Shown here in pieces: positions 31,585-36,306 of a stretch of DNA of 64,000 bases. Positions within the stretch are counted from its first letter, which is position 1, and every line of letters begins with the position of its first letter. The notes below the pieces were generated by a model, which ran no database searches, was not told the origin of the DNA, and saw only the letters and a list, made by a program, of their open reading frames with translations. Both the position numbers and the translations under genes were made by a program. The stretch is from an uncultured Gammaproteobacteria bacterium (lineage in GTDB: Bacteria; Pseudomonadota; Gammaproteobacteria; DRLM01), in the NCBI GenBank assembly GCA_947259075.1, contig CAMYKQ010000055.1, forward strand, positions 23,396 to 87,395, read 5' to 3'.

Positions 31585-33285
31585 ATGTTGAATCGTTACA
31601 CCTACGGACCCCGCGTCGCTTATTTCTCCATGGAGATCGCCTTGCGATCCGATATCCCCACTTATGCGGGCGGTCTCGGGGTGCTGGCGGGCGACACCCT
31701 GCGTTCCGCCGCCGATTTAGAAATCCCCATGGTGGCGGTGACCCTGGTCAGCACCGCCGGTTATTTCCGCCAAGAGCTGGATGAACAAGGCCGGCAACGC
31801 GAACTGCCCGCGGTGTGGGATCCCGCCAGCGCGGCCACGCCGCTGAATGCCAAAGTGGTGGTGCTCATCGAAGGACGCCGGGTATGGGTCGGTGCCTGGC
31901 TGTATTCGGTGAACGGCTTGGCGGATAACAGCCATCAGCCGGTGATTCTGCTCGATACCAATCAAGAGGAAAACAGCGAAGCAGACCGGCGCATTACCGA
32001 TCACCTCTACGGCGGTGATGAGGTGTACCGCTTAAAACAAGAAGCGGTGCTGGGCATAGGCGGGCTGCGGATGTTGCAGGCATTGGGTTTTACCATCAGC
32101 CAATATCATATGAACGAAGGCCACTCGGCCTTGCTGGCGGCGGAATTATTGAATCGCTACGCCTTCCCCAAAGAAGAATTGCGTCCGGGAGAATCCGCCT
32201 ACGATGTGCCGCGGGTGCGGGAGCTGTGCAACTTCACCACGCATACACCGGTGGAGGCGGGGCATGATCGCTTCAGTTACGAGGTGGTGCGGCGGGTATT
32301 GGGCGAAGACTTTATGGATCTGGCGACCTTGAAGCGGCTGGCCGGTGACGATGCCTTGAATATGACGCGGCTCGCGCTCAATTTGAGTGATTACGTCAAT
32401 GGCGTGGCCAAGACTCACGCCGAGGTGTCGCGGCGCATGTTCCCCGGTTACCGGGTGCGGGCGGTGACGAATGGCGTGCATCCCATTACCTGGACCAGTC
32501 CCAGCTTCAGCAAACTGTACGATCAGCACCTGCCCGGCTGGAGTCATGAGCCTGAATTATTGATCCGCGCCGATTGCTGTATTCCCGACGCGGTGATCTG
32601 GGAGGCGCATCGCGCGGCCAAGGCCGCGCTCATCGACAAGGTGAAGGCGTTGACTGGCGCGGTGCTCAGTCCTAAAGAGCCCATCATCGGCTTCGCCCGG
32701 CGCATGACCGCGTATAAACGCCCCGATTTATTGTTCTCGGATCTGGCGCGTTTGAAAAATATCGCCCAGCAATGGCCATTCCAATTAGTGCTGGCGGGCA
32801 AGGCCCATCCGCATGATGAAGGCGGCAAGCGGCTCATCGAACAAATTCACTATTACCTGCGCGAGTTGCAAGCGGATGTGCGCGGCGTGTATCTGCCCGG
32901 TTACGATATGGCCTTGGCCTTGGAAATGGTGGCGGGGGTGGATGTTTGGCTCAACACGCCCTTGCGGCCTTATGAGGCCAGCGGCACCAGCGGCATGAAG
33001 GCGGCCTTCAACGGCGTGCCGCAATTCAGCGTGCTCGACGGCTGGTGGGCGGAGGCCTGCATCGAAGGCGTCACCGGCTGGGCGATTGGCGACAGCAGCG
33101 AATCGGTCAATGGCAATGACGCCAATGCCTTTTATGACAAGCTGGAGAATGTCGTGCTGCCGCTCTACTACACCAATCAGCCGGGCTGGGTCGCGGTGAT
33201 GAAGGGCGCCATCTGTAAGAACGCCTCGTTCTTTAATTCACACCGCATGATGCGCCGCTATGCCAGCGAGGCCTATTTGCGCTGA
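31585..33285 (+). CDS. glgP: Alpha-glucan (glycogen/maltodextrin) phosphorylase
   Basis: 566 residues from MLNRYTYG, eight bases after GGAGG. This is the shorter alpha-glucan phosphorylase subfamily, not the 800-residue GlgP of enterics. YHMNEGHSA, TNGVHPITW, the phosphate/PLP region AYKRPDLLFSDL and EASGTSGMKAAFNG with the PLP lysine are visible. It releases glucose-1-phosphate from storage glucans. The 3' end overlaps the convergent mscS-like gene by 13 bp. The ORF track adds 24 upstream codons not preferred here. Confidence 0.93.
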   Translation: MLNRYTYGPRVAYFSMEIALRSDIPTYAGGLGVLAGDTLRSAADLEIPMVAVTLVSTAGYFRQELDEQGRQRELPAVWDPASAATPLNAKVVVLIEGRRVWVGAWLYSVNGLADNSHQPVILLDTNQEENSEADRRITDHLYGGDEVYRLKQEAVLGIGGLRMLQALGFTISQYHMNEGHSALLAAELLNRYAFPKEELRPGESAYDVPRVRELCNFTTHTPVEAGHDRFSYEVVRRVLGEDFMDLATLKRLAGDDALNMTRLALNLSDYVNGVAKTHAEVSRRMFPGYRVRAVTNGVHPITWTSPSFSKLYDQHLPGWSHEPELLIRADCCIPDAVIWEAHRAAKAALIDKVKALTGAVLSPKEPIIGFARRMTAYKRPDLLFSDLARLKNIAQQWPFQLVLAGKAHPHDEGGKRLIEQIHYYLRELQADVRGVYLPGYDMALALEMVAGVDVWLNTPLRPYEASGTSGMKAAFNGVPQFSVLDGWWAEACIEGVTGWAIGDSSESVNGNDANAFYDKLENVVLPLYYTNQPGWVAVMKGAICKNASFFNSHRMMRRYASEAYLR

Positions 33286-34085
33286 GAGTTGGCTTCGATA
33301 GGAGTGATGCCGTGTTGTTGCAGCGCGCTTTTAACCCGCTCGATGATGTCGCTGGCCATGGCGCGTTCGTAACGCACGTCCACTACATAGGCCTTGATGG
33401 TGACCTTGGTGATGTAGTGATAATCCACCTCGTCCTCCAGGACGATGACGACAGGCTTTTTTAGATAGCTATAGGGGCAGCAGAACGCGGCCTCGTGGGC
33501 CAGGGTCTTGAGTGTGGCGATATCGCTGGCGGCCGGCACGTGGAAAGGAACGGCGATCATTTCGGTGAGTTCACCAGCATTGGAGTTGACCACCGCTTGC
33601 TTCATGACCTCGGCATTGGGGATGGTGACGATGTCATCGGTGAAGGTGTGCAGGCGGGTCAAGTTGAGATCGATGCTTTTGACCTCGCCGTAATGTTCGC
33701 CGATGCGCACCATATCGCCGACGCGGTAAGGGCGGTCGAAGAGCATGATGACACCGGCAATCAGATTGCGCAGCATGTCTTGCGCCGCCAGGCCAAGCGC
33801 CACGCCCACCGTGGCGGCCACCGCGAGCAAGGCGCCTTGCGGCAAGTGGAGGATGACGAACACCGTCATCAGCAGCGCGAAAGTCCAGATGATTAAGCGC
33901 AGCAGCGGAAACAAGCGGGAGATTTGCAGCCGGTAACGGTTGAAACGCCGCGCCAGTTTATCCAGCGCCCAGCGCAGCAGCGCGACGAGACCGCCCGCCA
34001 AGCCCAGCCACAAGGCCGCCGCCAGCAGGGTGCCCAGTGAGAGTTGTTCGGCGATGGCTTTGAGGTTATCCACGGCGAGCCTCAA
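33273..34085 (-). CDS. MscS-family mechanosensitive channel
   Basis: 270 residues from a TTG start that overlaps the stop of the upstream ATPase gene (TTGA). Three membrane helices occupy roughly residues 15-115; the pore helix AVAATVGVALGLAAQDMLRNLIAG and FDRPYRVGDMVRI are standard MscS motifs, followed by the beta domain (TIPNAEVMKQAVVNSN). MscS channels release solutes on osmotic downshift. A GTG four codons later could also start it. Overlap with the AAA+ gene implies coupled translation and a possible functional partnership. Confidence 0.9.
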   Translation of the reverse strand: MRLAVDNLKAIAEQLSLGTLLAAALWLGLAGGLVALLRWALDKLARRFNRYRLQISRLFPLLRLIIWTFALLMTVFVILHLPQGALLAVAATVGVALGLAAQDMLRNLIAGVIMLFDRPYRVGDMVRIGEHYGEVKSIDLNLTRLHTFTDDIVTIPNAEVMKQAVVNSNAGELTEMIAVPFHVPAASDIATLKTLAHEAAFCCPYSYLKKPVVIVLEDEVDYHYITKVTIKAYVVDVRYERAMASDIIERVKSALQQHGITPIEANSQRK

Positions 34086-35368
34086 TACAACACATGCGCG
34101 GTAATCAGCGCATTGGCGATCGGCGTATACAACGCCGGATCGACGTAGTAGATGTTTTCCCCGTCGGCTTCCCGTCGTTCAACCACGCGGTGGGCGTGGA
34201 GGTGGTAGAGAATGATACGGCTTTCGGTTTCGCTCAGGCGAAACAGCGTTTGATGTTCAGCTAGAGTCAGTCCGCCGTGGGTCAGCATTTCCGCGAGGGT
34301 GAAATGATGCGGCGCGGCAAAGGATTTGATTGCGCCGAAGTCCACGCCCTCCAGCGCGTCAGCCTGAATGGTTTGCGCGCCGGCGTCGATATGGGTGGCG
34401 CAGTGCCAATGCAATAATGCCGCGGGCAGATTGCCGCCGCTGAGTTCGTAGAGTTTGTCGAGATAGGCCGTGACCGCGGCGTCCATTTCAGCCGCGTCAG
34501 GCGCTGTGTCTGGCGCCGCGCCGGTTACACCGCCATCATCTGGCGCCGCTGCGTTAAACCGCAAGGTCAAACCGGTATGTGTGATGCGCGAGCGCAACAC
34601 GGCATGAAATTCTTCCTGGGTGAAATAGTCCAGCGTGATCAGCGAGGAGAAATAACGCCCTACCTGATAAGTATGGTCGGCGCGGCGCCAAGCTTGCGCG
34701 CCGAAGCTGACTACCCACAGGGTGCGGGACTGGCTGGCGAGCATGGTGGCGAGGAGGGTTTTGAACGCGCGGTAGGCACCGGGTGTGCGCAGCAGCAAGG
34801 CATCGATATTGTCCAGCAGGATGATTTGATCGCGCGGCCGCGTGAGCTGGGCTTGGACTTCCGGCCAGGATGCATCGGCGTCGAGTTCGTAGAGCGGCGC
34901 GAACAATTTCGCCAGCACGGTTTCATCACGGATGCCGCTGCTCAAGTTCAAGCGATGCACCGGCGTGGCCTCGGGCAGCCGTGCCTCCAGCGCATTCAGA
35001 AACGAGGTGCGGCCGCAGCCGTCCGGGCCGACCACCGCCAGCAAGGTTGGCAGTTGACGTTGCCAGCGTGCGAGCGCGGCGTGGAATTGCTGGAGTTTTT
35101 GTTCGCGCGGAATGGCCCAAGGGGTATCGGCGGCCACGGGCGCCAAATTAAAGGCGGCGCGATAACGCGCCGGCAAGAGGCGCTGGCGCGCGCTGATTTG
35201 CTGCCAGCGCGGCATATCCAAGAGCGGGCATCCCGCGCGTTGCGTGAGTGTTTCGGAACTGCCTCGCGTGTCTTCACGGCCCAGCAGCACCGGAGGCAGT
35301 TTGCGCGCCCGCTGCGCGAGGCGGTCATATAGCTCGTGCCATTTTTGCCGCAGGGATTCCAATATCAT
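34082..35368 (-). CDS. AAA+/P-loop ATPase coupled to an MscS channel
   Basis: 428 residues. Walker A GPDGCGRTS is near residues 114-122 and Walker B IILLDNID near 182-189, giving an ORC/AAA_16-like module. The C-terminal part (LAEMLTHGGLTLAEHQTLF, ...RIILYHLHAHRVVERRE) resembles a winged helix. About 90 basic N-terminal residues and an acidic Ala/Asp-rich linker near residue 290 have no obvious relatives. No membrane segment. The stop overlaps the start of the MscS gene, so the two are expressed together. I do not recognise a characterised protein. Confidence 0.8.
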   Translation of the reverse strand: MILESLRQKWHELYDRLAQRARKLPPVLLGREDTRGSSETLTQRAGCPLLDMPRWQQISARQRLLPARYRAAFNLAPVAADTPWAIPREQKLQQFHAALARWQRQLPTLLAVVGPDGCGRTSFLNALEARLPEATPVHRLNLSSGIRDETVLAKLFAPLYELDADASWPEVQAQLTRPRDQIILLDNIDALLLRTPGAYRAFKTLLATMLASQSRTLWVVSFGAQAWRRADHTYQVGRYFSSLITLDYFTQEEFHAVLRSRITHTGLTLRFNAAAPDDGGVTGAAPDTAPDAAEMDAAVTAYLDKLYELSGGNLPAALLHWHCATHIDAGAQTIQADALEGVDFGAIKSFAAPHHFTLAEMLTHGGLTLAEHQTLFRLSETESRIILYHLHAHRVVERREADGENIYYVDPALYTPIANALITAHVLY

Positions 35369-35454: not shown

Positions 35455-36306
35455 ATGGAGCGGCGAATCTTATTGTGCAGCGATCTTGATCGCACCCTGC
35501 TGCCCAATGGCGCGCAAGCGGAGTCGCCGCGCGCACGGCCGTTGTTGCGCGCCTTCGCCGCGCGGCCGGACGTGAGCTTGGCCTATGTCAGCGGCCGCCA
35601 TCTCGCCTTGGTGCAGGCGGCGATCGCCGAATATGCTATTCCACAACCTGATTTCGCCATTGGTGACGTGGGCACGACGATTTATGAAGTGGGCGCCGCG
35701 GGCTGGCGGCTGTGGGATGCCTGGGCGGACGAGATCGCGCCCGATTGGCGCGGCCGCCGTCATGATGAACTGGCGCGCTTGCTGGATGACATCGGCGAGC
35801 TGGTGTTGCAGGAAAGCGAAAAGCAGAATGCCTTCAAGCTGAGTTATTACCTCGATCCCGCCGTGGCCCGTGGCGCCTTGTTGGACGAGGTGCGCGCCCG
35901 CCTCGCCGCCGAAAAATTGCGGGCCAATTTAATCTGGAGCATAGACGAGACCCGTCATCAGGGTCTGCTCGACGTCTTGCCCGCGTCCGCGAATAAACTG
36001 CACGCCATCCGCTTTTTAATGGCGCGGCGCGGTTACAGCGCGCGCGAAACCGTGTTCGCCGGTGACAGCGGCAATGACGTGCAGGTGTTGAGCGGCGGAC
36101 TGCAAGCGATTTTGGTGCGCAATGCTACCGCCGAGGTGCGCGCGGAGGCGGAGGCGCAACTGGCGGCGGCCGGTCATCACGGCACGCTCTATACGGCGCG
36201 GGGTGATTGGGCGGGTATGAACGGGAATTACAGCGCCGGGGTGCTGGAGGGCGTGGCCCATTATTTCCCCGGAATGAAGGATTGGCTGGAGACGCGGGCC
36301 GGGTAA
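35455..36306 (+). CDS. HAD hydrolase, sucrose-phosphate-phosphatase-like
   Basis: 283 residues, RBS GGAGGGGAG. HAD motif I is CSDLDRTLLPN, motif II SGRH, and the distal acidic motif GDSGNDVQ with lysine NKLHAIRFL; the cap region fits the S6PP family (sucrose-6F-phosphate phosphatase and relatives such as glucosylglycerol- or mannosylglycerate-phosphate phosphatases). It would remove phosphate from a sugar phosphate, perhaps for a compatible solute. No sucrose-phosphate synthase lies nearby. Divergent from the ATPase-MscS pair, which would fit an osmotic theme. Confidence 0.85.
   Translation: MERRILLCSDLDRTLLPNGAQAESPRARPLLRAFAARPDVSLAYVSGRHLALVQAAIAEYAIPQPDFAIGDVGTTIYEVGAAGWRLWDAWADEIAPDWRGRRHDELARLLDDIGELVLQESEKQNAFKLSYYLDPAVARGALLDEVRARLAAEKLRANLIWSIDETRHQGLLDVLPASANKLHAIRFLMARRGYSARETVFAGDSGNDVQVLSGGLQAILVRNATAEVRAEAEAQLAAAGHHGTLYTARGDWAGMNGNYSAGVLEGVAHYFPGMKDWLETRAG

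Follow-up and report, generated by a model that had tools for sequence, protein, structure and literature searches.

Results

The AAA+-derived gene and its MscS neighbour

The window, the whole stretch of 64,000 nucleotides analysed here, encodes two adjacent genes on its reverse strand, and the 428-residue ORF that the original prediction had placed ahead of an MscS-type gene is indeed present (ORFs at 34082-35368 and 33273-34085). The upstream gene (34082-35368) encodes an AAA+-derived protein of 428 aa, here called the partner, whose match to AAA_22 lies at the cut-off and whose domain borders are approximate. The downstream gene encodes an MscS channel of 266 aa if read from a GTG codon (33273-34073; 33273-34085 with a TTG start), which matches PF00924 and belongs to the clade of partnered MscS described below. 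The pair lies between a divergent gene for a HAD-type phosphatase (35455-36306) and a convergent gene for a glucan phosphorylase. Six MscS domains are encoded in the whole 3.1-Mb source genome, and only the one in the window is partnered.

We compared the junction of the two genes (TTGAGGCTCGCCGTG, 34071-34085, reverse strand) with 29 other junctions. The partner had been described as ending inside the MscS start codon; a TTG (34085-34083) does overlap the partner stop codon TGA (34084-34082), but the channel most likely starts at the GTG at 34073-34071, 8 nt past the stop. We preferred this codon because it lies 6 nt past a Shine-Dalgarno-like GAGG (34083-34080) that overlaps the partner stop codon, because an 86%-identical relative in genome G003 has an ATG at its position (gap of +8 nt), and because an N terminus of the form M-D-x-L begins there in both. 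Across 30 pairs the gaps, which rest on start codons of our own choice, range from -8 nt (the ATGGATAA and ATGGATAG overlaps) to about +40 nt and lie between -8 and +21 nt in 28; tight adjacency of partner and channel is conserved. The 8-nt gap, a Shine-Dalgarno sequence that spans part of the stop codon and the short gaps elsewhere make translational coupling of the two genes plausible.

The partner has an AAA fold with degenerate catalytic motifs

Homology at the profile level places the window partner in the AAA+ fold superfamily. It scored 27.0 bits against AAA_22, exactly at the cut-off of 27, and 23.4 bits against the Pfam AAA model (cut-off 21.2), with no NCBIfam or PADLOC assignment. 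For the partner family, the curated models reached at cut-off were only the generic AAA_22, AAA_16 and AAA, and nSTAND-like Pfam matches stayed below threshold; no annotation giving the protein an unrelated role was found. A family profile of 16 sequences matched the AAA structures of ClpE (3e-12) and Orc1/Cdc6 (5e-7), and its positions 313-388 matched MarR-type winged-helix chains (YusO, 1s3j, 6.5e-5), which supports the C-terminal winged helix that had been thought probable; the partner of G131 gave a sub-threshold MarR_2 match. In the window protein the AAA core would cover residues 85-330 and the winged helix residues 345-410, all borders being approximate. The conserved C-terminal tail ends in ANALITAHVLY, and hydropathy gave no transmembrane segment. 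An AlphaFold model based on an alignment of the window and G003 proteins only reached a pLDDT of 44 and was not used for a fold search.

The description of the protein as a P-loop ATPase with Walker A and B motifs did not hold for the catalytic residues. In the degenerate Walker A GPDGCGRTS (residues 114-122; 35003-35029, reverse strand) Arg replaces the Lys of the active signature GxxxxGK[ST], as it also does in G003, and in the degenerate Walker B IILLDNID (residues 182-189; 34802-34825, reverse strand) Asn replaces the catalytic Glu of hhhhDE; both motifs were read from the family motif table, with coordinates derived from residue numbers. As these two residues are missing, no ATP hydrolysis is expected of the window protein, which should not be taken for an active ATPase; weak nucleotide binding is possible. 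Between window and G003 the partner gene has a dN/dS of about 0.20 and the channel gene one of about 0.12, which points to purifying selection and shows that the partner gene is not decaying.

The channel belongs to a distinct MscS subfamily

The MscS identity of the window channel is secure by its match to PF00924, the MscS beta domain (5e-21; 74.9 bits, cut-off 20.2), and the profile of its subfamily matched solved MscS structures with values up to 1.6e-25 (3t9n, 3udc). Its sequence comprises three N-terminal TM helices, the beta domain and the alpha/beta domain, and the glycine/alanine-rich pore helix VAATVGVALGLAAQDMLRNLIAG aligns to the pore region of the solved structures. The C-terminal beta-barrel strand (FPxPQxDV type), which is common in MscS and not required for family membership, is absent from all 30 partnered MscS, that of the window included, and was found in 5 of the 7 unpartnered MscS sequences scored. 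Residues that are invariant or nearly invariant in partnered MscS and rare elsewhere include R48, Y128, E130, D146, N165, G167, Y229, D232 and R246 (window numbering from the GTG). In the MscS tree the 30 partnered channels and one partner-less channel (G242) form one clade with 98/99 support, and 13 unpartnered MscS fall outside it. The channel represents a new MscS subfamily. One locus (L109 9175-12981, in G437 of family f8) carries three MscS genes within 4 kb on both strands, the partnered one and two others.

Conservation of the pairing across at least 17 families

The pair is not specific to this strain: in a sample of about 770 genomes we found it at 30 loci in 17 gammaproteobacterial families. 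All 22 strong full-length homologues of the ATPase, and all eight homologues without a P-loop, are immediately followed by an MscS gene in the same orientation. The partner in G003 (74% relative of the window protein) lies in an identical gene order, and MscS adjoins all the more distant relatives of the window partner, which share 17-30% identity with it. A search of 399 genomes of the phylum with the partner profile yielded 15 further strong homologues, each followed by MscS. The reverse search of 369 genomes of the class with the MscS profile yielded 15 loci better than 1e-42, all with an upstream partner; eight of these partners form a divergent clade without a P-loop, which profile comparison showed to be homologous to the ATPase family over the AAA and winged-helix regions (E 6.5e-22, 306 columns). 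A profile of this clade again matched only MscS-linked loci. Such pairing in 30 of 30 relatives, set against six MscS domains in the 3.1-Mb source genome, is far beyond chance.

Five weak matches of the partner profile were rejected as partners, as their wider flanks hold no MscS and their similarity is confined to the surroundings of the P-loop. No MscS was present in the DNA seen around P-loop-only matches of other families, and some of the weak matches of this kind were in proteins with two P-loop stretches.

The pair is patchy, occurring in about 4% of the class genomes sampled. It is absent from both sampled congeners, G001 and G002 (75% complete), and from G004 and G005, which marks it as an accessory unit. 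A mobile-element origin was considered and rejected, since the window protein has no plasmid or phage relatives. Among 21 pair neighbourhoods no third gene recurs across lineages. The divergent window gene encodes a HAD protein resembling sucrose-phosphate phosphatases (S6PP 1.3e-49), and an osmotic theme had been suggested on its account. This suggestion does not extend beyond family f1: the HAD gene adjoins the pair only there (window and G003), and G004 keeps it (60% identity) without the pair. By this distribution the divergent phosphatase is outside the two-gene unit.

Partner and channel share their history while the motifs decay

The partner tree contains the same three clades as the channel tree, namely the soluble window type (clade I), a membrane-anchored type (clade II) and the P-loop-less type (clade III). 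Pairwise distances of partners and channels were correlated (r = 0.94 for 18 representatives, with 0 of 5000 permutations as high), the species tree not being subtracted. Within a single genus, G105 has a clade I pair and G320 a clade II pair, so that channel and partner move as one unit. The earlier claim that the two genes are functionally coupled is strongly supported by the conserved adjacency, the tight junction and the agreement of the trees.

Partners of clades I and III lack TM segments, although two clade III proteins each show one weak hydrophobic stretch. By hydropathy, clade II partners have a putative periplasmic region, in several cases after a signal-peptide-like start, and then several TM-like segments (about 3-7) ahead of the AAA domain, some clade II ORFs being cut at the edge of the locus. 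The clade II membrane regions are related among themselves; the notion that these partners are split MscK proteins was dropped, because the extra membrane domain shows no detectable homology to that of MscK (hhalign probability 0.2-0.4%). A clade I partner in G105 (L029 4445-6841) carries about 350 additional N-terminal residues, which belong to no known family and include no TM segment.

The Walker A Lys is kept in G105, G320, G132, G546, G437, G586 and G719, which belong to five families (f101, f128, f192, f8 and f139). Family f1 (window and G003) has Arg instead, f153, f132 and f194 have Leu, Ile or Val, and f184 and f190 have Thr, Ala or Ser, and the whole P-loop motif is absent from the six clade III families. 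Thus the Lys is missing in 12 of the 17 families, which have retained the pairing with MscS nonetheless. A partner tree built without the motif columns shows three or more changes in the state of the Lys. Only G132 and G546 keep the Walker B Glu, and both also keep the Lys.

A partner-less MscS of the partnered clade was seen (L120 around 8156, in G242, and L091 1100-1500), with a long inverted repeat (AAGGATACCCT...) in the upstream region. G242 appears to have lost its partner and would be a natural case of loss; as its channel is kept alone, the partner is not strictly indispensable. Some clade III partner genes contain stop codons or a frameshift (L102 and L105 in G367; L103 and L104 in G339); those of G367 sit in a single-contig genome. 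They are possibly decaying partners, or else sequencing errors.

Discussion

We put at about even odds that the pair forms a dedicated channel complex, in which an MscS of a distinct subfamily is joined by a mostly non-catalytic AAA+/winged-helix auxiliary subunit. The partner would be made by coupled translation just ahead of the channel and would most likely bind the channel's cytoplasmic cage, which lacks the C-terminal barrel motif of ordinary MscS; its putative docking site is the bottom of the cage or the alpha/beta domain. Once bound, it would set the threshold at which the channel opens, or its inactivation. The ancestral partner probably bound nucleotide, and catalysis would have been lost in the source genome and in most lineages, leaving not a motor but a scaffold, or at most a sensor of nucleotide (energy state). 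Partners of a further branch would bring periplasmic and transmembrane domains of their own.

How far this reading can be preferred depends on several others. The original prediction favoured ATP-dependent gating, in which the partner, as an active ATPase, would drive or energise the channel. The AAA fold and the two relatives that keep both the Walker A Lys and the Walker B Glu (G132 and G546) speak for it, and ATP-dependent gating may occur in a few relatives. As an account of the family it is improbable, and a motor role in the source genome is unlikely, since in the window Arg stands for the Lys and Asn for the Glu, and since pairing outlasted the loss of the Lys in 12 of 17 families and of the P-loop in one clade. 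The same loss bears on the idea that the partner is an assembly or insertion factor, which would fold or assemble the heptamer and take no part in the working channel. AAA proteins often act in assembly, and the partner is always upstream and translated first; an assembly factor, or a shared regulon, would likewise lead to adjacency and agreement of the trees. Assembly AAA proteins usually need ATP turnover, however, which the window protein is predicted to have lost, and the co-evolution and the membrane-anchored partners suggest a lasting contact, so that we consider this role unlikely.

Since the C-terminal region matches MarR-type winged helices, and STAND and AAA-wHTH regulators exist, the partner might instead bind DNA and control the channel gene; membrane-bound partners would then resemble one-component membrane regulators. 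However, one short common operon would allow autoregulation only, no target gene recurs nearby, and Orc/Cdc6-type proteins hold winged helices too, without control of transcription being implied; we regard a gene regulator as a rather unlikely answer. The patchy presence and the sub-threshold nSTAND-like matches would fit a stress or phage-defence module, in which an insult sensed by the partner would lead to opening of the channel, so that the cell is halted or killed. The only match to a known defence family in PADLOC was to mad8 (E 0.012, in the P-loop region of the window protein) and is not convincing, and the lack of plasmid or phage relatives, the absence of any recurring neighbours and the loss of catalysis make such a module very improbable. 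Least credible is mere operon convenience, with unrelated genes together by chance or for shared expression: already unlikely, it would have to account for 30 of 30 loci in 17 families, in varied neighbourhoods and always with one specific MscS clade.

MscS is a model for the sensing of membrane tension and is usually viewed as a self-sufficient valve. If the conserved, co-evolving partner is what the dedicated-complex reading takes it to be, regulated complexes exist among MscS channels. The loci form a natural series (motifs intact, Lys lost, P-loop gone, membrane-anchored, partner lost) that offers material for testing the roles of partner and nucleotide, and the pair gives a context to proteins that now match only generic AAA models or nothing. 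We found no published description of an MscS-partner pair in the open-access literature, and a description elsewhere is possible; the two-component arrangement appears undescribed. That this is the first dedicated auxiliary-subunit system of MscS, for which an AAA+ protein was recruited and kept in partnership while several lineages lost its ATPase motifs, so that a former enzyme became a structural regulator of gating, is a tentative claim to which we give somewhat less than an even chance.

Comparison with known systems

With the small-conductance mechanosensitive channels of the MscS family (E. coli MscS; PF00924) the window channel shares the TM helices and the pore helix as well as the beta and alpha/beta domains. 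In contrast to ordinary MscS, partnered channels form a separate clade with invariant residues of their own, lack the barrel motif and have a dedicated partner gene. MscK and MscM are large members of the MscS family that carry additional periplasmic and TM domains, and clade II pairs likewise join an MscS core to a periplasmic and membrane domain, but there the extra domains are on the partner and not on the channel, with no detectable homology (hhalign <1%). The bCNG proteins, MscS channels fused to cyclic-nucleotide-binding domains, also place an MscS core under a regulatory module, whereas the module in the window is a separate AAA+/wHTH protein in which no cyclic-nucleotide domain was found. 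With the AAA_22, Orc/Cdc6 and STAND ATPases the partner shares an AAA core followed by a winged helix; it differs from them in that its catalytic residues are degenerate and that it always lies beside an MscS.
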